Shown one piece after another: positions 37,222-50,880 of a DNA stretch of 64,000 nt. Below the pieces are notes generated by a model, which saw only the letters and a program-made list of their open reading frames with translations, had not been told where the DNA came from and did no database searches. Location of the stretch: NCBI GenBank assembly GCA_031296405.1, contig JAVKKH010000013.1, positions 1 through 64,000 on the forward strand. Reading direction: 5' to 3'. The position numbers were made by a program, and so were the translations under genes. Within the stretch, counting starts at the first letter, position 1, and every line of letters starts with the position of its first letter. The stretch is from Candidatus Tepidifontimicrobium thermophilum (GTDB lineage: Bacteria > Sysuimicrobiota > Sysuimicrobiia > Sysuimicrobiales > Sysuimicrobiaceae).

Positions 37222-39153
37222 GTGCGGCGTCTTGGGGTTGTCCTGTGGGTTACCGGGACGGCGCTGTCCTGGGCGTGGGCACAGTCCGGGCCCCCTGACC
37301 TGGCCGGCAGCTGGGCCGCGTCGCGGATCCAGGTGCTCTTGGAGCGCCGGGTGGTCGACACCGACCCGGACGGCCTGTTCCGACCCGAGTCCACCCTGAC
37401 GCGCGCGCGGTTCGTCCGGTGGCTGGTGACCGCGCGAGGGTTGCCTGCGGTCCGTCCGGACCGGCCCAGCTACCCCGACGTACAGGTTTCCAGCCCGGAG
37501 GCAGCCTTCGTGGAAGCCGCTGCCCGCTACGGGCTGCTGCCGGAGGAGAGCCGGTTCCGGCCGCACGAGCCCCTGCGACGGGCTGAGGCGGTGGACTGGG
37601 TGGTGCGGGCTCTGGGCTACACGTGGGAGGCCAGCTGGCTGGCCGTCCGGACCAATGCCGACCCCTCCAGTGCCCCCCTTCTCCTGGCCGCCCGGACCGA
37701 ACCGCCCCTGCTGCAGGAGCCCTGGGGTGCCCCGCAGCGTGACCGCTTCATCACCCGTGCGGAGGCCGCAAGCCTCCTGTGGGCGTACCTGAGGGCGGTG
37801 GAAGAGGGCGTGCGGCTGAGGTACGAGCAGGAGCTGGCGCCGGGGGTGTCGGTGGTGGTTGAAAAGCGGGGCGCGCTGCGCACGCTGCCCGTCTGGCGGG
37901 TGCAGGTAGGGGCCTTCGCGAACCCCGACAACGCCCGGCGGCTGGCGGACCGCATGCGGTCGGCTGGGCTCGTGGCGTTCGTGGACGAGGTGGACGGGCT
38001 GTACAAAGTCCGGGTAGGCTCCTTCGCTACGCGTCAGGAAGCGGGGGAGCTGGCACAGCGTCTGAAGATGGAGGGGCTGCCCACGTGGGTGCTGTCCACG
38101 GTGCGGGACCTCGAGCGACTTTCCGTGCCTCAGTGGGTCGCAGCCTTGCGGGTGGATCCCCGGAGGTTCGAGGTGCGCCCGGTGCTGGCCCGGGATCGGG
38201 TCCCGGGACGGGAGCGGACTTCGGACATGGCCAGGCGCGCGGGCGCGGTGGCGGCCACGAACGGCGGGTTCTTCGCTCCCGACGGCGACCCCCTGGGGGG
38301 GCTCGTCATTGATGGGGAGTGGGTCAGCGAGCCTACACCGGGACGGTCGTGCCTGGGGTTGGGGGACGGAGTCGCACTGGTGGACGCCCTGGACTGGTAC
38401 GGCGAGGTGCTGACCCCGGCTGGCGCGCTGCGGCTTTCCGGGTTGAACCGCAGGCGCAGAGCGGGCGAGGTGATCCTGTTCACGCCTCGCTACGGGGGTA
38501 CCACCCCTGCCGACCCTTCTGGAGTCGAAGTCTTGGTGGTAGGGGGAATCGTCCGCGAAGTCCGATCCGGCGGCAGCAGCCCGATCCCCTCCGACGGCTC
38601 CGTGCTTTCCGCCGGCGGCTCCGTGGCCGCCGCCCTGGAGGTCCTCCGCCCCGGGGATCCCGTGCGGGTGACCCTTTCCCTTCGGCCCGCCTCGGGCGAC
38701 CCACGGTGGCACAACGTCCGCCACGTGGTGTGCGGCGGGCCGCGTCTGGCCTCCGGAGGCGTGGCCGGCCCGTCCCACGAGGGCTTCCCGGAGGGTTTCC
38801 GGGACCGCCGGCACCCGCGTACCGCCGCGGGCGTGGCCGCGGACGGCAGCCTGCTGTTGGTGGTGGTGGACGGCCGGTGGCCGGAGCACAGCTTGGGCAT
38901 GACCCTGTCCGAGCTGGCCCGGGAGCTGGTGAGCCTGGGGGCCGTGGACGCCGTCAACCTGGACGGCGGTGGCTCCACGACCCTGGTGGTGGGCGGAGCG
39001 GTGCTGAACCGTCCCTCGGACGAGGGAGGCGAGCGTCCCGTGAGCGACGCTCTGGTGGTGCTGCCGAAGGGTCTGTCTATCCCGCCTTCGCGGCCAGCTG
39101 GAAGATGGGCAGGTACAGGGAGACAACCATGGCCCCCACCACCAGGCCCATGA
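37222..39153 (+). CDS. exported SLH-SPOR-NAGPA (phosphodiester glycosidase) protein
   Basis: A 643-residue secreted protein with a signal peptide (1-20, cleavage near AWAQ). The region 30-195 has S-layer homology-like repeats (DGLFRPESTLTRARFVRWLV and RFRPHEPLRRAEAVDWVVRA). A SPOR peptidoglycan-binding domain lies at about 223-295 (WRVQVGAFANPDNARRLADR). A phosphodiester glycosidase/NAGPA domain lies at about 360-625, with AATNGGFFAPDGDPLGG and the C-terminal VNLDGGGSTTLVV. It probably acts on cell-wall sugars or exopolysaccharide phosphodiesters. The last 26 residues run 77 bp into pilC on the other strand and look non-conserved. Confidence 0.85.
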   Translation: MRRLGVVLWVTGTALSWAWAQSGPPDLAGSWAASRIQVLLERRVVDTDPDGLFRPESTLTRARFVRWLVTARGLPAVRPDRPSYPDVQVSSPEAAFVEAAARYGLLPEESRFRPHEPLRRAEAVDWVVRALGYTWEASWLAVRTNADPSSAPLLLAARTEPPLLQEPWGAPQRDRFITRAEAASLLWAYLRAVEEGVRLRYEQELAPGVSVVVEKRGALRTLPVWRVQVGAFANPDNARRLADRMRSAGLVAFVDEVDGLYKVRVGSFATRQEAGELAQRLKMEGLPTWVLSTVRDLERLSVPQWVAALRVDPRRFEVRPVLARDRVPGRERTSDMARRAGAVAATNGGFFAPDGDPLGGLVIDGEWVSEPTPGRSCLGLGDGVALVDALDWYGEVLTPAGALRLSGLNRRRRAGEVILFTPRYGGTTPADPSGVEVLVVGGIVREVRSGGSSPIPSDGSVLSAGGSVAAALEVLRPGDPVRVTLSLRPASGDPRWHNVRHVVCGGPRLASGGVAGPSHEGFPEGFRDRRHPRTAAGVAADGSLLLVVVDGRWPEHSLGMTLSELARELVSLGAVDAVNLDGGGSTTLVVGGAVLNRPSDEGGERPVSDALVVLPKGLSIPPSRPAGRWAGTGRQPWPPPPGP

Positions 39154-40294
39154 ACACGATCATGGCGGGCTCCAGGGTGCTGGCCAGGGCGGCCACCGCG
39201 GCCTCCACCTCCGTGTCGTAGAAGTCCGCCACCTTCACCAGCATCTCGTCCAGGTTACCGGCCTCCTCCCCCACCTTCACCATCTGCACCACCATGGGAG
39301 GGAACAGCTCCACCTGGGACAGGGGGAGGGCGATGCTCTCGCCTTCCCGGATGCTGGCGCGGACCTTCCGGATGGCCTCCTCCACCACCACGTTGTCCAC
39401 GGCCTTGCTGGTCACGTCGAAGGACTGCAGCAACGGCACGCCCGCGCCCAGCAGGGTGCCGAGGGTTCGGGCGAACCGCGCCAGGACGGTCTTCTGGATC
39501 ACGGACCCGAACACCGGGAGGTGGAGCTTCGTCCGGTCCCACCACGCCTTGCCCACCGGCGTCCGCAGCCACCGCAGGAAGCCCCACACCGCCACCGCGA
39601 TCCCCGGGATCCACACGTACCAGAAGGTCCGGAGGACGTAGCTAATTGCCATGACGATCTTGGTGGGCACGGGCAGGTCGCCCACGTTCAGCTCCTGGAA
39701 GAAGACCACGAACTGCGGGATGATGACCATGGTCATAAAGAGCAAGGCTCCCGTGGCCGCCAGGGTCAGGATGACAGGGTACACCATGGCGGACTTGATC
39801 TTCTGCCGCAGGGCGAACTCCTTCTCCAGGAAGGTCGCTAGGCGCTGCAGGACGTCGTCCAGGACTCCGCCGGCCTCCCCTGCCCGGACCATGTTCACGT
39901 ACAGGGAGCTGAAGGCCTGCGGGTGCTTGGACAGCGCCTCCGCCAGGGTGCGGCCCTGCTCCACGTCCGCCCGTACCTTGCTCAGGACCTCCCGCAGGCG
40001 GTGGCTGGTGGTCTGCTGTTCCAGGATGGTCAAAGACCGCACCAGGGTCAGGCCGGAGTTCACCATGGTGGAGAACTGCCGGCTCATGAGGGCGAGGTCC
40101 CGCAGGGAGATCCCGCGGAACAGGTCGAAGAAGCTGCGGGCCTCCCCGGGGCCGGCCTTGGCCCGCTCGATGGCGGTGATGAAGAAGCCCATCTGGTGGA
40201 GCTTCTCCGCCACCTGGGCGTCGTTCTCCGCCTCCAGGGTTCCCGTCACCACCCGACCCATCTGGTCGCGGGCGGTGTACTGGTAGACCGCCAT
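39077..40294 (-). CDS. pilC: type IV pilus inner-membrane platform protein PilC
   Basis: A 405-residue GspF/PilC protein that anchors the pilus motor ATPases. It has two cytoplasmic T2SSF domains; the first contains FSTMVNSGLTLVRSLTILEQ and MVRAGEAGGVLDDVL, the second FARTLGTLLGAGVPLLQSFD and MVKVGEEAGNLDEMLVKVAD. About three membrane helices. ATG at 40294 follows CGGAGGAGGG. It is last in a minus-strand set dnaB-like, pilT, pilC. Confidence 0.95.
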   Translation of the reverse strand: MAVYQYTARDQMGRVVTGTLEAENDAQVAEKLHQMGFFITAIERAKAGPGEARSFFDLFRGISLRDLALMSRQFSTMVNSGLTLVRSLTILEQQTTSHRLREVLSKVRADVEQGRTLAEALSKHPQAFSSLYVNMVRAGEAGGVLDDVLQRLATFLEKEFALRQKIKSAMVYPVILTLAATGALLFMTMVIIPQFVVFFQELNVGDLPVPTKIVMAISYVLRTFWYVWIPGIAVAVWGFLRWLRTPVGKAWWDRTKLHLPVFGSVIQKTVLARFARTLGTLLGAGVPLLQSFDVTSKAVDNVVVEEAIRKVRASIREGESIALPLSQVELFPPMVVQMVKVGEEAGNLDEMLVKVADFYDTEVEAAVAALASTLEPAMIVFMGLVVGAMVVSLYLPIFQLAAKAG

Positions 40295-40311: not shown

Positions 40312-41460
40312 TCAGGCGATCATCTTGCGGAGCTCGTCCGGATGAATGGCCTTCCCGATGGCGTCCTCGAAGGAGATCAGGCCCCGCTGGTACAGGTCCC
40401 GCAGGGACTGGTCCATGGTCTGCATCCCCCACTCCGCACCCGTCTGGATGGCGGACTCGATCTGGTGGGTCTTCCCCTCCCGGATGAGGTTGCGGATGGC
40501 GGGGGTGGCGATCATGACCTCCACCGCGGGCACCCGGCCGATCTCCTCCAGGGTGGGCCACGTCCGCCGCAGGGTGGCCACCGCGCCGGCCCGGCGGGCC
40601 GCCGCGTAGCTCTCCTGGCTTCCGAAGCGCCGTAGGAACAGCTGGTTGGGCAGGAGGATCTGGCTGATGACGGCCTCCAGCACCGAGCTCAGCTGCACCC
40701 GCACCTGCTGCTGCTGGTGGGGCGGGAACACGTCGATGATGCGGTCCACGGACTGGGCGGCGTTGGCGGTGTGCAGGGTGGCGAACACCAGGTGGCCGGT
40801 CTCCGCGATGGTGAGCGCCGCCGCGATGGTCTCCAGGTCCCGCATCTCGCCGATGAGGACCACGTCCGGGTCCTCCCGGAGGGCGGCCCGCAGGGCGTTG
40901 GGAAAGGACTGGGTGTCGAAGCCCAGCTCCCGCTGGTTGATCACGCTGCGCTTGTGCTCGTGCAGGTACTCGATGGGGTCCTCGATGGTGACGATGTGGC
41001 AGCTGCGCTCTTCGTTGATCTGGTTGATCATGGCCGCCAGGGTGGTGGACTTGCCCTGGCCCGTGGGCCCCGTGACCAGGATCAACCCCCGGGGCTTGCG
41101 GGTGAGTTCCACCAGGACACTGGGGAGGTTCAGGTCCTCCAAGCGCGGGACCTCGTGGGGGATCACCCGGATGGCCACCCCCACCGCCCCCCGCTGCCGG
41201 TACACGTTCACCCGGAACCGCCCGAGCCCGGGCACCCCGTAGGACAGGTCCAGCTCCCAGTTCTTCTCGAACTTCTGCTTCTGCAGGGTGTTGAGCATGC
41301 TGTAGGCCAACTGGTAGGTGTCCTCCGGGGTCAGCACCGGGTAGCCCGCAAGGGGGGTCAGCTTGCCCCACACCCGCATGATAGGGGGGACCCCTGCCGT
41401 GAGGTGCAGGTCGGACCCCTGACGGTCCACCACTTCCTTCAGCAGCTGCTCGATGTTCAT
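40312..41460 (-). CDS. pilT: twitching motility/retraction ATPase PilT
   Basis: A 382-residue PilT ATPase that depolymerises the pilus. Walker A GPTGQGKSTT (131-140, Gln instead of the common Ser), the Asp box TIEDPIEYLHEHK, Walker B VVLIGEMRDLET, the His box GHLVFATLHTANA and the PilT-specific AIRNLIREGKTHQ near 321. Between SQILLPN and AVEVMIATP there is an unusual insert of roughly 30 residues (about 272-308), rich in Arg and Ala. It is 17 bp from pilC. Confidence 0.95.
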   Translation of the reverse strand: MNIEQLLKEVVDRQGSDLHLTAGVPPIMRVWGKLTPLAGYPVLTPEDTYQLAYSMLNTLQKQKFEKNWELDLSYGVPGLGRFRVNVYRQRGAVGVAIRVIPHEVPRLEDLNLPSVLVELTRKPRGLILVTGPTGQGKSTTLAAMINQINEERSCHIVTIEDPIEYLHEHKRSVINQRELGFDTQSFPNALRAALREDPDVVLIGEMRDLETIAAALTIAETGHLVFATLHTANAAQSVDRIIDVFPPHQQQQVRVQLSSVLEAVISQILLPNQLFLRRFGSQESYAAARRAGAVATLRRTWPTLEEIGRVPAVEVMIATPAIRNLIREGKTHQIESAIQTGAEWGMQTMDQSLRDLYQRGLISFEDAIGKAIHPDELRKMIA

Positions 41461-41484: not shown

Positions 41485-43050
41485 CTAGCTGCCCGCCACC
41501 AGGGCTTCCGGAGGTGCGTGCAGCAACCCGGCCTCCTTGAGCTGGCTGTAGATCTCCACCACCTTCGAGAAGCCCCGGAAGTCGCCCCGGTACTCCTTCT
41601 CGTGCTTGTAGCCCAGCTCCACGAACTTGTTCAGGGTGATGAAGAAGGCGAACTGCACGATGTTGGACTCTGCTTCCGGGGCGTCCCGGTTCTTGTCGAT
41701 GAACAGGTTGAGGATGTCGATCCTGGGGAGTTCTTCGGGGTCCAGCCCCTCCTGCCGGGCCTTGGACTCCAGGTAATCCCGCAGGTCCCGGGTCGCCTTC
41801 CAGTCCTTGACCAGCACCATGGCCACGTCCAGGTCGTACTCCAGGTCGCCTGAGCCCACGCTGTGGTGCATGGTGGGCCGCTCGTACAGCTCCGACTCCC
41901 CGTCGTCCTCCGCAGGCCGCTCGTCCAGCCGGCAGCCCTCCTTGTCCAGGGGCGAGATAGCCAGAATCGGGGCCCGCAGCTCCAGGCTGAGTTCCGCCAG
42001 CTGTGAGGAGATCAGGTCCGTACGGGCCTTGTCGTCCGCGATGGGCTCGTCCAGGGGGATCTTCTGCAGGTAGTCCAGGCAGACGAGGATCCGGTCGGTG
42101 TCGTGCTCCTGCATCACGTTGTAGGCGTGGGCCTTGATCCGGTCCAGGGTGTCCCTCCGCCCGGCCTCCACCAGGTACAGGTAGGGCGCGAACCGGTACA
42201 CCTCTTCCTCCGCGGCCCGCAGCTTCGACAGGCTGAGCGGGGAACGGTCCACGGTCCCCGCCAGGATGTCCGCCGGGCTCACCAGCATCTCCTTGGCCAG
42301 AAGCCGTGCAGCCAACACCTTTGCCGTCTGCTCCCACGAGTAGAAGAGGACGGGGATGCGGTGATTGCGGGCCACGTAGCTGGCCAGCTGCAACGCCAGG
42401 TTGGTCTTGCCCCGCCGGGGAGCCCCGGCCAGCCCGTAGTAGAAGCCCGGCCGGAGCCCTGAGAGCACCCGGTTCAGCCGATCGAAGGGCGAGATGGAGT
42501 ACCCCAGCAGGCCTCCCGCGGAGGGATTCTGGACGTTCTCGATGAGCTCGGCCACCAGGTCCCCGACGGGGACCAGGCGCTGGCGCAGGCGCCGCTTCTG
42601 GACCTCGAACAGCTCCCCCACCACCTCGCCCACGAACCGGACCAGGTCCCGGGAGCCCGCGCGTTCCCCCTGACGGAGGAAGTCCTGGATCCGGCGCTGG
42701 ACCGCCTCCAGCCTGCGGCGGCTCTCCCGCGCCTTGAGCGCGTCCAGGTAGCTGGCCATCTGGCTAGCGGAGGGCGGACGGGTCATCCGCACCGCCTGCA
42801 GCAATCGCTCCATCTCGGGGGTCAGCAGTCCCCGCTCGTGCACCTCGTGACGGACGCTCACTTGGTCCAGGGGAGCCGCGCGGGCCATGGCCAGTTCCAG
42901 CACCACCTTGCTCAGGCGCTGGGCCACGGGGTTGTCCAGCATCTCTGGCGCGAACCCCTCGTTGAGGGCCAGGCTGATCAGGTGTCGGTCGGCCATCAGG
43001 CCCGCCACGACCGCCACGTCCAGCTCGTACCGTGCGTCCATGGGTGTCAA
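41485..43050 (-). CDS. DnaB-like helicase/RecA-fold ATPase in the pilus operon
   Basis: About 521 residues. An N-terminal helical domain resembling DnaB_N (about 10-115) is followed by a linker and a hexameric-helicase RecA domain. Walker A is GAPRRGKTNLALQLA in place of the usual G-x-SxGKT, Walker B ILVCLDYLQKI, then SVGSGDLEYDLDVAMVL and FIDKNRDAPEAESNIVQFAF, which align with DnaB motifs H3 and H4. A charged 30-residue segment is inserted before H4. The TTG at 43050 sits six bases after AGGAGG; ATG 43041 is an alternative. It precedes pilT and pilC by short gaps and may be a divergent second DnaB, or a motor recruited to DNA uptake. Confidence 0.8.
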   Translation of the reverse strand: MTPMDARYELDVAVVAGLMADRHLISLALNEGFAPEMLDNPVAQRLSKVVLELAMARAAPLDQVSVRHEVHERGLLTPEMERLLQAVRMTRPPSASQMASYLDALKARESRRRLEAVQRRIQDFLRQGERAGSRDLVRFVGEVVGELFEVQKRRLRQRLVPVGDLVAELIENVQNPSAGGLLGYSISPFDRLNRVLSGLRPGFYYGLAGAPRRGKTNLALQLASYVARNHRIPVLFYSWEQTAKVLAARLLAKEMLVSPADILAGTVDRSPLSLSKLRAAEEEVYRFAPYLYLVEAGRRDTLDRIKAHAYNVMQEHDTDRILVCLDYLQKIPLDEPIADDKARTDLISSQLAELSLELRAPILAISPLDKEGCRLDERPAEDDGESELYERPTMHHSVGSGDLEYDLDVAMVLVKDWKATRDLRDYLESKARQEGLDPEELPRIDILNLFIDKNRDAPEAESNIVQFAFFITLNKFVELGYKHEKEYRGDFRGFSKVVEIYSQLKEAGLLHAPPEALVAGS

Positions 43051-43203: not shown

Positions 43204-43280
43204 ACTTGCTCTTCGCGTAGACTGGGAGCAAGGACGGCGGTGGCCGGGGGGCACCGGTGGCGAGGAGCCGGGAGAGGACC

Positions 43281-45722
43281 ATGAAGGCAAGCGGGACGAA
43301 GGCCGAGCAGGCGGAGGCCGAGCTGGCTGCCCTCCGGGAGTACAAGGCATCTTTGGGGATCCCTGCGGGCAACCAGACCCTGGAGTGCGCGTGGCGGTAC
43401 CACCAGGCCATCCGGCACGCCCACGCGGGCCGGCTGCAGGAGGCCATCGCGGAGTACAAAAAGCTCATCGAGCTGGCGCCGGAGGAGCCCATCCACTATC
43501 TGGATCTCGCGGACCTGTACCAGTCCGGGGGCTTCATGAAGGAAGCTGCGGTAGTCCTCCTGGCGCTGGGTGAGGTGTACGAGAGGCTGGGGCTTTCCCA
43601 GGAGGCAGTCAGCGTCCTGGAGCGCGCCGAAGCCCTGGAAGCGAGGGCGGACGGCCACCCGGCACCGGCCCGTGGGCTGGACGCCCAACCGTCCCCAGCG
43701 ACGGGAGAGCCGGGGCCGGCGCCCGAACCGGCTGAGGAGCAGCACGGGGAAGCCGCTCCGATCGTAGGGGAGGTCCCCCCGAGGCCGGAGGCGGCGCAGG
43801 CGCCCTTCGAGGCTGCCGCCGCACTCGAGCACCTAGCCCAGGGCCAGGCCGAGACCGCCCAACGGAGTTCCGCCGAAGTGCCGGCCCGCGAGACGTTCGA
43901 GCGGCCCGTGCAGCACGAGCCAGGCGCGCCGCCTTCTGCGGCCTCCCTGCCGGTGCCGGACCCGGCGGCTTCAACTCCCCCAGCACCTCCTTCCGGACCC
44001 CGAGCCGCCGCGCGTCCCGGTGCGCCCACCCTGGTCCGGCGGGAAGCCCTGGGCGGCATCCTGGTCCGCATGGGGCTGCTGAACGAAGCGCAGCTGCAGC
44101 AGGCCCTGGAGATCCAGGCCCGCACCGGCGAGCGGCTGGGCCGCATCCTGGTCCGCATGGGGCTGATCGCGGAGGAGGACCTGGCGAAGGCCATCGGGGT
44201 ACAGTGGGGCTACCCGTACGTGAGCCTGAGCAACACCCCCGTGGACCCGGAGGTGGTACGGCTGGTACCCCAGCACATCGCCTCGCGTCACAAGGTGCTG
44301 GCCTTCGGCCGGAACGGGGACCGCCTCCTGGTGGCCCTGGTGGATCCCCTGAACCTGCTGGCCTTGGACGACGTGCGGCTCGTCACCGGGATGGACGTGG
44401 AGGCCCGCATCACCACCGAGGACGAGCTGATGCAGGCGATCAACAAGTACTACCACGTGGGCTCCATCTTCGACCAGGCCGTGGTCACGGAGGAGGAGGC
44501 GGCGGCCGAGGAGGAGGTCAGCATCGACCGACTCCGGGAGATGGTGGACGAGGCCCCGGTGGTGAAGCTGGTCAACGTGATCCTGGACCAGGCCATCCGG
44601 GAGGGGGCTTCGGACATCCACATCGAGCCCCACCGCAACGGGCTGCACGTCCGCTACCGGATCGACGGGGTGCTCCACGACGTCATGTCGCCGCCGAAGA
44701 ACCTCAAGGCGGCCCTGGTGTCCCGCATCAAGATCGTGGCGAACCTGGACATCGCGGAGCGGCGCCGTCCTCAGGACGGCCGGATCCACCTGAAGGTGGA
44801 CGGCCGGGACATCGACCTCCGCGTCTCCACCCTCCCCACCATGTTCGGGGAGAAGGTGGTGATGCGCATCCTCGACCAGTCCAACGCCCTCATCAGCCTG
44901 AACCGGCTCGGCATGGCCAGCGACGTCCAGGCCCAGTGGGAGGAGCTGGCCAGCAAGCCCTACGGGATGATCCTGGTGACCGGACCCACCGGCAGCGGGA
45001 AGACCACGACCCTGTACGCCACGCTGAGCAAGATCAACACCCTCGACAAGAACATCATTACAGTGGAGGACCCCGTCGAGTACCAGCTCCCGCGCATCAA
45101 CCAGGTCCAGGTGAACCCCAAGGCGGGGCTCACCTTCGCCACGGGGCTGCGGAGTATCCTCCGGCAGGACCCGGACGTGATCATGGTGGGCGAGATCCGC
45201 GACCGGGAGACGGCGGAGATCGCGGTGCAGGCGGCCCTCACAGGCCACCTGGTGCTCAGCACCCTGCACACCAACGACGCCCCCAGCGCCTTCACCCGCC
45301 TGGTGGACATGGGCATCGAGCCGTTCCTCATCACGTCGTCGGTGATTGGGGTCCTGGCCCAGCGGCTCGCTCGGACCATCTGCCCGAAGTGCAAGGAGGC
45401 GTACCGACCGCCCCGCGAGGCGGTGCGGCGCCTGTCGGAGGAGCTGGCGGAGGAGAAGGACTTGGTGCTGTACCGGGGTGCCGGCTGCGACTTCTGTCGC
45501 CAGACGGGCTACAAGGGCCGGACCGGGGTCTACGAGCTGCTGGTGGTGAGCGACCGGATCCGGGAGCGGGTGGTCCGGCGCGCCTCCGCCAACGAGATCC
45601 GGGAGGTGGCCCGCTCGGAAGGCTTCCGGACCATGCGGGACGACGGGATCCGTAAGGTGCTGGAAGGGGTCACCACCATCGAGGAGATCCTGCGGGTGGT
45701 GTACGTGACGGAAGGCGCCTGA
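43281..45722 (+). CDS. pilB: type IV pilus assembly ATPase PilB/GspE with N-terminal TPR fusion
   Basis: An 813-residue extension ATPase. The N-terminus (about 25-115) is TPR-like (YHQAIRHAHAGRLQEAIAEY, VLLALGEVYERLGLSQEAVS). A disordered Pro/Ala/Glu linker follows (about 120-255), then an MshEN domain (GGILVRMGLLNEAQLQQALE and a second copy). The GspE ATPase has Walker A GPTGSGKTTTLYATLS, TVEDPVEYQLPRI, DVIMVGEIRDRETAEIAV and the zinc site CPKC...CDFC. MshEN domains bind c-di-GMP in several PilB proteins. ATG at 43281 follows GGGAGAGG; GTG 43257 is possible. It is divergent from the dnaB-like/pilT/pilC set. Confidence 0.93.
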   Translation: MKASGTKAEQAEAELAALREYKASLGIPAGNQTLECAWRYHQAIRHAHAGRLQEAIAEYKKLIELAPEEPIHYLDLADLYQSGGFMKEAAVVLLALGEVYERLGLSQEAVSVLERAEALEARADGHPAPARGLDAQPSPATGEPGPAPEPAEEQHGEAAPIVGEVPPRPEAAQAPFEAAAALEHLAQGQAETAQRSSAEVPARETFERPVQHEPGAPPSAASLPVPDPAASTPPAPPSGPRAAARPGAPTLVRREALGGILVRMGLLNEAQLQQALEIQARTGERLGRILVRMGLIAEEDLAKAIGVQWGYPYVSLSNTPVDPEVVRLVPQHIASRHKVLAFGRNGDRLLVALVDPLNLLALDDVRLVTGMDVEARITTEDELMQAINKYYHVGSIFDQAVVTEEEAAAEEEVSIDRLREMVDEAPVVKLVNVILDQAIREGASDIHIEPHRNGLHVRYRIDGVLHDVMSPPKNLKAALVSRIKIVANLDIAERRRPQDGRIHLKVDGRDIDLRVSTLPTMFGEKVVMRILDQSNALISLNRLGMASDVQAQWEELASKPYGMILVTGPTGSGKTTTLYATLSKINTLDKNIITVEDPVEYQLPRINQVQVNPKAGLTFATGLRSILRQDPDVIMVGEIRDRETAEIAVQAALTGHLVLSTLHTNDAPSAFTRLVDMGIEPFLITSSVIGVLAQRLARTICPKCKEAYRPPREAVRRLSEELAEEKDLVLYRGAGCDFCRQTGYKGRTGVYELLVVSDRIRERVVRRASANEIREVARSEGFRTMRDDGIRKVLEGVTTIEEILRVVYVTEGA

Positions 45723-48956: not shown

Positions 48957-48998
48957 CAGAACAAACAGAAGGCCCGTGCGCACCGCGCGAACGGGCCC
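48957..48998 (-). terminator. intrinsic terminator behind the c-di-GMP riboswitch
   Basis: On the minus strand GGGCCCGT pairs with ACGGGCC around an inner GCGC-GGT-GCGC stem. The tail is TTCTGTTTGTT. It begins 12 bases after the riboswitch P1 stem, the usual place for an expression-platform terminator. Confidence 0.75.
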
Positions 48999-49009
48999 AA
49001 AAACGAAAC

Positions 49010-49101
49010 CACCGTTTTCGGCAACCCGGCCGACCTGCTCCTCGCAGGCCCCGTTGGCTTTGCGTCCCCGCGTTACCGCGGGTTTGCCCTTTCGAACGGT
49101 G
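49010..49101 (-). ncRNA. c-di-GMP-I (GEMM-I) riboswitch aptamer
   Basis: Read on the minus strand, P1 is CACCGTT/AACGGTG. The conserved GGGCAAACC is followed by a P2 hairpin CCGCG-GTAA-CGCGG with a GNRA tetraloop, then GGGACGCAAAGCC and the P3 helix ending GGGTTGCCG. These match the c-di-GMP-I aptamer, including the J1/2 and J2/3 bases around the ligand pocket. It has its own promoter and a terminator, but no recognisable gene lies downstream on the minus strand. Confidence 0.9.
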
Positions 49102-49123
49102 CGCGGTTCAGTTTTGTACCGGC

Positions 49124-49152
49124 ACAATAGCGCCGGCCAACCGGGCTGTCAA
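49124..49152 (-). promoter_or_regulatory. sigma70-type promoter of the riboswitch RNA
   Basis: On the minus strand TTGACA (49147-49152), a 17-bp spacer and TATTGT (49124-49129). It is one of the best promoter matches in the window. The start of transcription would fall near 49117, just before the aptamer. Confidence 0.8.
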
Positions 49153-49239
49153 TCCCCCGACCGGGCGAAATTCCACAAAGGACTGCGTTGCATCCGCGGG
49201 ACGGTCCGTCTAGTCTGGAGGCGCCGCAGGAGGTGGGCG

Positions 49240-50880
49240 TTGGCGCGCTGGGCGGAGTTCGCGGCCACCCTGGACGCGGTGTCCCGTACGCCGTCGAAAC
49301 GCGAGAAGGTCACCCTGCTGGCGGCCTACCTGCGCCGGCTCCCGGAAGAGGCGTTGCGGGTCGCGTGCACGTACCTGACCGGTCGCGTGCTGCCACCCGG
49401 AGATCCCGACAAACTGCAGATCGGCTGGTCCACCATCGTGGAGGTGCTGAAGGAGCTGTCCGGGGCTACCGACCGGGAGGTCTCGGAGCTGTACCTGCGG
49501 TGGGGGGACCTGGGAGACGTGGCCGCGGAGCTGGTGGCCCGGCGCCGCGCGGTACCCCTCTTCCGCGAGCCCCTGACCCTTGAGGGGGCCCACGCGCAGC
49601 TGCGGCGCGCGGCGGCCGCGCGCGGGAAGGGAGCCGCAGAGTTCCGGGCCGCGGTCCTGCGGGCGCTGCTGGAGCAAGCGCAGCCTATGGAGGCCAAGTT
49701 CCTGGTCCGGGTGCTCACCGGTGACCTGCGGATCGGGCTCAAGGAAGGGTTGCTGCAGGAGGCGGTGGCCGAGGCCTTCGGCGCTCGGCCGGGAGCGGTA
49801 CGCCGCGCGGACCTGCTGTCCTCCGACCTGGGAGAGGTGGCGTGTCAGGCACGGCGGGGCGAGCTGGCGGCCGCCTCCCTCCGTTACTTCCGCCCGTTCC
49901 GCTTCATGCTGGCTGGCACCCTCGCGGACCCCGCGGAGCCCTTCCACGACGGCCCACAGGAGGTGCTGGCGGAGGACAAGTACGACGGGGTACGCGTGCA
50001 GGTGCACCGCCTGGGCGACCGGGTGACTCTGTACTCGCGCACCCTGGACGACGTGACGGACAGCTTCCCAGAGCTCCGACAGCCCCTGCTGCAACTGGGT
50101 CCCGCGTACATCGCGGACGGCGAGCTGGTGGCGTGGGCCGGGCAGCGGCCGGCGCCCTTCCAACGGTTGCAGCAGCGCCTGCGCCGGCTGGATCCTTTCC
50201 AGGTGGCGGAGCAGGTCCCCGTGGCCCTCTTCCTCTTCGACGTGCTGAAGCTCGGGGAGCAGGATCTGATGGATTTGCCCCTGGCCGAACGCCGCCAGCG
50301 CCTCCAGGCCATGGAGTTCTCCGGACCGGTCCGCCTGGCGAGCGCCCGACCGGTGCGGGACGTGGCCTCCTTACGGGAGGCCTTCCGCGACGCCCGGGAA
50401 CGTGGCAACGAGGGCCTGGTGGTGAAACGCCTGGACGCACCCTACCGGCCGGGGCGGCGGGGCGGGCTGTGGCTGAAGTGGAAGGAGCCGCTGGCAACCC
50501 TGGACGTGGTCGTGGTGGGTGCGGAGTACGGCCACGGCAAACGGGCGGGGTGGCTCAGCGATTACACCTTCGCCGTCTGGGACGGCGACCGCCTGCGGGT
50601 GGTGGGCAAGGCGTACTCAGGCCTGCAGGACGCGGAAATAGCGGAGCTCACGCAGTTCTTCCTCCACCACACGGTGCGGGACTTCGGGCATTTCAAGGCG
50701 GTGGAGCCGAAGGTGGTGCTGGAGGTGGCGTTCGACGCCGTGACCCGTAGCGACCGGCACGACTCCGGCTACGCGCTGCGCTTTCCCCGCATCGTCCGGG
50801 TGCGCGCCGACAAAACGCCCCGGGAGGCCAGCACCCTGGAAGAGGTGGAAGCCCTGTACCGCCAACAGCGGGAGGGCTAG
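49240..50880 (+). CDS. lig: ATP-dependent DNA ligase (archaeal LigA-type)
   Basis: A 546-residue ATP-dependent DNA ligase with the three-domain archaeal layout: an N-terminal DNA-binding domain (about 1-220, with TGRVLPPGDPDKLQIGWSTI and VRVLTGDLRIGLKEGL), an adenylation domain and an OB domain. The nucleotidyl lysine is Lys247 in EDKYDGVRVQ. Motif III is FLFDVLKLG, motif IV NEGLVVKRLD and motif V WLKWK. TTG at 49240 is fixed by AGGAGG at 49228-49233. Most bacteria use an NAD-dependent ligase for replication, so this is probably an extra repair ligase, plausibly of archaeal origin. Confidence 0.93.
   Translation: MARWAEFAATLDAVSRTPSKREKVTLLAAYLRRLPEEALRVACTYLTGRVLPPGDPDKLQIGWSTIVEVLKELSGATDREVSELYLRWGDLGDVAAELVARRRAVPLFREPLTLEGAHAQLRRAAAARGKGAAEFRAAVLRALLEQAQPMEAKFLVRVLTGDLRIGLKEGLLQEAVAEAFGARPGAVRRADLLSSDLGEVACQARRGELAAASLRYFRPFRFMLAGTLADPAEPFHDGPQEVLAEDKYDGVRVQVHRLGDRVTLYSRTLDDVTDSFPELRQPLLQLGPAYIADGELVAWAGQRPAPFQRLQQRLRRLDPFQVAEQVPVALFLFDVLKLGEQDLMDLPLAERRQRLQAMEFSGPVRLASARPVRDVASLREAFRDARERGNEGLVVKRLDAPYRPGRRGGLWLKWKEPLATLDVVVVGAEYGHGKRAGWLSDYTFAVWDGDRLRVVGKAYSGLQDAEIAELTQFFLHHTVRDFGHFKAVEPKVVLEVAFDAVTRSDRHDSGYALRFPRIVRVRADKTPREASTLEEVEALYRQQREG

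Follow-up and report, generated by a model that had tools for sequence, protein, structure and literature searches.

DnaB2, encoded by the first gene of a type IV pilus (T4P) operon in Candidatus Tepidifontimicrobium thermophilum, has the fold of the replicative helicase DnaB and keeps its ATPase residues, but residues that contact single-stranded DNA in canonical DnaB are replaced. Comparison of the sequences leads us to propose, with a probability of about 0.42, that it is a DnaB-derived, probably hexameric ATPase ring which acts on protein and which was recruited as an accessory to the T4P motor in the order Sysuimicrobiales (hereafter the order). The window, i.e., the whole stretch of DNA analysed, has 64,000 nucleotides.

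The dnaB2 gene and its surroundings

The gene and its T4P neighbours are located as follows in the window:

41485-43050, minus strand: dnaB2, a divergent DnaB paralogue of 521 aa (Pfam, NCBIfam and profile match)
40312-41460, minus strand: pilT, with a GPTGQGKS Walker A motif and an insertion of about 30 aa (TIGR01420, 491 bits)
39077-40294, minus strand: pilC (T2SSF, E 1.4e-64, Pfam)
43257-45722, plus strand: pilB, with N-terminal TPR and MshEN domains, divergent from dnaB2 (Pfam/NCBIfam)

The stop codon of dnaB2 is a TAG (41485-41487) and its start a TTG at 43050, with AGGAGG upstream; an ATG at 43041 is an alternative start. The coordinates given in the initial annotation are thus right, and so is its description of a tight operon in which dnaB2 comes first: the gene lies 24 bp upstream of pilT, a gap of 17 bp separates pilT from pilC, and both downstream genes are recognised by Pfam and NCBIfam. 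Beyond pilC, and convergent with the operon, a gene encodes a protein in which a phosphodiester glycosidase is joined to SPOR and SLH domains (37222-39153, plus strand, Pfam). The window also encodes an ATP-dependent DNA ligase in which all three domains are present (48976-50880, plus strand), of a kind that we take to be typical of archaea.

The dN/dS ratio of dnaB2, calculated against two close relatives, is 0.14 and 0.11, which indicates that the gene is under purifying constraint. There is no PADLOC match that would suggest a defence role, and a search of viral contigs with the profile of the family gave no relatives. A phage origin was considered and rejected, since the families matched in PHROG are generic ones of DnaB or primase/helicase type, plus one of unknown function.

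Fold and family of DnaB2

DnaB2 matches the Pfam family DnaB_C with an E value of 2.1e-25, and the sole other Pfam match is AAA_25. With the NCBIfam model of replicative DnaB (TIGR00665) it scores 123.5 bits, far below the equivalog cut-off of 385.25. A profile built from 13 relatives matches the Geobacillus-type DnaB chains 2r6a and 4esv over almost the full length, including the N- and C-domains.

The AlphaFold model in use (pLDDT 84, pTM 0.73) was obtained with an alignment consisting mostly of phage DnaBs (55 rows), which biases it towards DnaB, so that independent support comes from the sequence profile search; a model based on five close relatives alone had a pLDDT of 47 and was not used. 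The best PDB matches of the model are full-length DnaB chains (Foldseek E 1e-24). In the comparison by VIA, DnaB chains reach a Z of about 32 with 372-435 residues aligned, and the rmsd exceeds 13 in several rows owing to a different placement of the two domains. T7 gp4, RadA and KaiC rank after DnaB as RecA-fold neighbours. From the profile match and the best structural matches, DnaB2 keeps the two-tier fold of DnaB, with the N- and C-domain architecture first read from the gene.

Residues of the ATPase site and of the DNA contacts

The residue comparison covers 40 DnaB2 rows (32 from the order and 8 from elsewhere), after removal of duplicates and of the partial proteins G002, G037, G039 and G041, and 24 canonical DnaB rows, from which the divergent DnaB-like L067 was left out. 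The functional labels of the residues, other than the equivalents of R381 and E382, are those that we presume to apply. The motifs of the window's protein are encoded at the following positions:

42403-42426, minus strand: Walker A GAPRRGKT, residues 209-216 (GAPRRGK in 40/40 DnaB2 rows)
42331-42336, minus strand: motif H1a W-E, residues 239-240, with the catalytic Glu240 kept (40/40 rows; alignment)
42073-42075, minus strand: Walker B Asp326 (40/40 DnaB2 rows)
41950-41952, minus strand: motif H3 position, with Pro367 replacing the canonical Gln (alignment)
41881-41940, minus strand: acidic insert before H4, about residues 371-390 (alignment)
41854-41859, minus strand: H4 loop, with V398-G399 at the position of the canonical ssDNA-contacting Arg-Glu (alignment)
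41686-41694, minus strand: Lys453-Asn-Arg455 finger, kept (40/40 DnaB2 rows)

The unusual Walker A sequence singled out in the initial annotation is general in DnaB2, and its Ala position is occupied by Arg in 24/24 canonical rows. The Walker A Lys is found in all 40 rows, and the following Thr is replaced by Ser in two.

The motif H3 position and the DNA-contacting positions, in contrast, have changed. The Gln of motif H3, present in 24/24 canonical rows, is lost in 40/40 DnaB2 rows, being Pro in 32/32 rows of the order and Ser in the 8/8 others. In G. stearothermophilus DnaB, R381 and E382 are ssDNA contacts, according to PMC6391071. The equivalent of R381 is Val or Met in 32 rows, Thr in 5 and Lys in 3, and that of E382 is Gly in 40/40; where Lys is present, some phosphate contact may remain. 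Three conserved basic positions of canonical DnaB (305, 344 and 348 in the numbering of the protein from the window's genome) become Asn (31/32), Ala or Ser (32/32) and Leu (32/32), respectively, in the DnaB2s of the order. The net charge of the RecA domain ranges from -15 to -4 in the 32 rows of the order and from -12 to -3 in the 8 others, compared to -3 to +8 in the 24 canonical rows. The charged insert before H4, also noticed at first, is real and amounts to about 12 residues; the protein also has another insert at about 417-442 and is extended at its C-terminus (about 479-521). Since the ATPase residues are kept and the DNA contacts are lost, the ring should, judging from these alignments, still burn ATP but not couple ATP to DNA in the known way.

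Linkage to type IV pilus loci

T4P genes directly adjoin dnaB2 in all the genomes that carry it in three families of the order: 7/7 in f1, 11/11 in f5 and 9/9 in f7. The arrangement differs between families: dnaB2 precedes pilT-pilC in f1, is found with MerR-DUF6812-pilB2-pilT-pilC and a divergent pilB in f5, and lies between two pilB genes in f7. In G036, it precedes pilD, pilins and pilMNOQ. Genes in the flanks were called with a simple script, which missed some of them, and the names PilN, PilO, PilQ and PilD at these loci are presumed from the sequences. The DnaB-fold protein in a pilus locus that drew attention in the window thus occupies a conserved place in these three families (27/27 genomes). 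Some T4P operons of the order start with genes for a sigma-70-type factor, a MerR regulator and small roadblock/LC7-like proteins (L098 2674-4563).

The linkage is not universal. No T4P gene was found near dnaB2 in the 9 genomes of family f2 (several of whose flanks are short on one side), which brings the linkage to 27/36 over the order, and in two f2 genomes where the T4P locus was read, it lies elsewhere and does not include dnaB2. In the tree, f2, which is unlinked, stands next to the linked families, so that the linkage may have been either gained once or lost in f2. Outside the order, among the 8 genomes sampled first, a T4P ATPase gene is close to dnaB2 in one (a PilB gene 2.7 kb away) and an MshEN-domain protein is encoded nearby in two; ten further loci, two of them on short contigs, have no T4P gene within five genes on either side. 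The neighbours found outside f1, f5 and f7 include, in f2, tRNA_edit and S9 peptidase genes and, in others, genes of the Germane and amidohydrolase types, nusB, serS, and genes that we take to be accBC/efp. In L214 and L220, from family f254 of another phylum, dnaB2 comes after a gene for a Germane-domain protein and is divergent from dnaA, and the genes that come next resemble dnaN and recF.

Distribution of DnaB2 and PilT

DnaB2 is present in 36 of the 43 genomes of the order, in 34 of the 54 genomes of the phylum of G055 (three families there) and in 8 more genomes, from five families, among a wider sample of 386; outside the order, it occurs in seven families altogether.

The PilT of the operon is unlike other PilTs of the genome: its Walker A reads GPTGQGKS and an insertion of some 30 residues precedes the IRNLIRE motif, features which are shared throughout the order. 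This PilT subtype (GPTG[QHN]GKS and the insertion) occurs with DnaB2 in 32 genomes of the order, while 4 have only DnaB2 (assemblies 64-93% complete), 2 only the PilT subtype and 5 neither (Fisher p 0.002, ignoring relatedness); these counts were read by hand, and partial matches in G030, G033, G034 and G040 were scored as present. For the phylum of G055, the corresponding numbers for DnaB2 and PilT are 26, 8, 8 and 12 (p 0.01, also ignoring relatedness), and four of the eight DnaB2 genomes without visible PilT are at least 90% complete. The 8 DnaB2 genomes outside the order in the 386-genome set all have PilT, but this co-occurrence says little because 316 of the 386 have it. Six T4P-bearing genomes of the order (G009, G011, G018, G022, G024 and G027) have PilB and no DnaB2, which argues against a strict need for DnaB2 in T4P.

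These six genomes, the absence of linkage in f2 and its rarity in other phyla all weigh against a T4P role. The main alternative is that DnaB2 is a general ATPase with an older cellular role outside the pilus, such as a signalling or remodelling function exerted at the membrane or on RNA or protein, the pil operon being a shared transcription unit and not a mechanism. This proposal, plausible if somewhat short of even odds, accounts for the fact that most members outside f1, f5 and f7 sit beside other genes and that T4P-bearing genomes can do without DnaB2. It sits less well with the complete linkage that has withstood rearrangement of the locus in three families, and with the co-distribution of DnaB2 and PilT in two phyla.

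Canonical DnaB and the DnaB2 clade

The genome of the window (assembly G000, 2.44 Mb in 38 contigs, 95% complete) encodes a canonical DnaB on a separate contig (L041 7905-10280, G000 contig 13). Thus DnaB2 is not the only DnaB of the genome; had it been, the initial annotation, which advised looking for a canonical dnaB elsewhere, would have considered its location incidental. The canonical protein is split by an intein at the junction between the Lys and Thr of Walker A (GK/T); the intein begins with a Cys and finishes with His-Asn. Many relatives have long open frames for the canonical dnaB, of about 730-1490 codons, which points to an intein there as well; G009, G018, G027 and G030 have plain canonical dnaB genes coding for 449-450 aa.

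The 15 DnaB2 genomes of other lineages that were tested all have another DnaB, which scores over the curated cut-off in 13 of them and at 304-311 bits in two. In the tree, one branch with a support of 100/100 separates the 40 DnaB2s (32 of the order and the 8 others) from 25 further DnaBs; only this split is relied on, because long branches meet (as the program warned). On this basis, DnaB2 is a paralogue clade apart from canonical DnaB.

DnaB2 could also be a backup or specialised helicase, for replication or repair, which still moves on DNA with altered contacts. The full DnaB fold, the complete ATPase site, the Lys at the H4 Arg position in 3 rows and the proximity of dnaA in f254 would suit such an enzyme, but it appears improbable considering that the window's genome has a canonical DnaB and the 15/15 others another DnaB, that the H3 Gln and the H4 Glu are lost in 40/40 rows, and that the score is 123.5 bits for a cut-off of 385.

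DNA uptake

ComEC (PF03772) was found in none of the 12 genomes of f7, 9 of which carry DnaB2 in the pil operon; six of these 9 are at least 94% complete. Over the order, 24 genomes have both DnaB2 and ComEC, 12 only DnaB2, 3 only ComEC and 4 neither (p 0.39, no association). DnaB2 has therefore survived without detectable ComEC in 12/36 genomes, including 9/9 of f7, which argues against the role in DNA uptake initially suggested. A motor that pulls or processes incoming ssDNA during transformation via the pilus system, an idea that the DnaB fold adjoining pilT and pilC may bring to mind and for which PMC5512693 and PMC11612176 offer a precedent in RadA, a known DnaB-type helicase acting in transformation, is unlikely given these genomes and the loss of the DNA-contacting Arg/Glu and of the H3 Gln.

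Proposed role of DnaB2

The initial annotation had also suggested an accessory motor, and this part of it fits the conservation of the ATPase residues and the loss of the DNA contacts; it is the generality of the pilus link that fails, in f2 (0/9), in most members from other phyla and in the six T4P-bearing genomes that lack DnaB2. DnaB2 keeps a complete ATPase site, acting in trans, and has lost the residues which grip the ssDNA phosphate and those through which ATP is coupled to DNA. It is likely to assemble into a hexameric ATPase ring, whose substrate would be a protein. In the order, this ring may have been recruited to a T4P system with a distinctive PilT, where it would most likely be an accessory ring that docks on the PilT or PilB hexamer and modulates or switches the motor. 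This model follows that of the archaeal ArlH, a ring of RecA/KaiC fold which is thought to act likewise on ArlI, next to ArlJ. A broader version, in which DnaB2 is a protein-acting ring that stacks on bacterial T4P motors and switches them between extension and retraction, as an independently arisen, DnaB-derived counterpart of ArlH, is rather doubtful.

If the accessory role is correct, a DNA helicase ring has come to regulate a pilus motor, and a double ring of the design suggested for the archaellum has evolved independently in bacteria. Should DnaB2 have no role in the pilus, it would still be a widespread DnaB clade with a conserved ATPase site and lost DNA contacts, whose members would tend to be misleadingly annotated as replicative helicases. 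In the literature searched, with most subscription journals outside its scope, no paper was evidently devoted to a DnaB paralogue in a T4P operon, judging by the listings.

Comparison with known systems

DnaB2 shares with replicative DnaB (TIGR00665; PF03796) the two-domain fold, the Walker A and B motifs, the catalytic Glu and the Lys/Arg finger. It differs from it in being 18-25% identical in the alignments used and below the equivalog cut-off, in the absence of the H3 Gln and of the H4 Arg/Glu, in its inserts and C-terminal extension, and in coexisting with a canonical DnaB.

The hallmarks of RadA/Sms are, we assume, a zinc finger and a Lon-like domain. DnaB2 has the DnaB-type RecA core of this protein (PDB 8rxc, Z 25.3, rmsd 1.9 over 206 residues), but neither of these domains nor any other RadA-specific one was found by Pfam, which detects only DnaB_C and AAA_25, and it has the DnaB N-domain instead. 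The motor ATPases PilT/PilU and PilB are encoded in the same operon but belong to the T2SSE family, for which DnaB2 has no Pfam match.

A close parallel in organisation would be the ArlH-ArlI-ArlJ system. PMC8978795 describes ArlH as a RecA-fold protein which assembles into a hexamer, interacts with ArlI and is required for the biogenesis of the archaellum; it is presented there as KaiC-like and devoid of ATP hydrolysis. DnaB2 differs from ArlH by its DnaB N-domain and by the conservation of the hydrolysis residues, and its resemblance to KaiC is limited to the fold (Z 21.5), no match to the KaiC Pfam family being found at E<=0.001. The analogy is thus one of arrangement and fold and not of family, with no sequence tie beyond the shared RecA fold. 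In both systems, a RecA-superfamily ATP-binding protein would partner a PilT/PilB-type ATPase and a PilC-type platform protein, and the order of the genes, in which the RecA-fold one comes before those of T2SSE and T2SSF, is that of dnaB2-pilT-pilC in the window.
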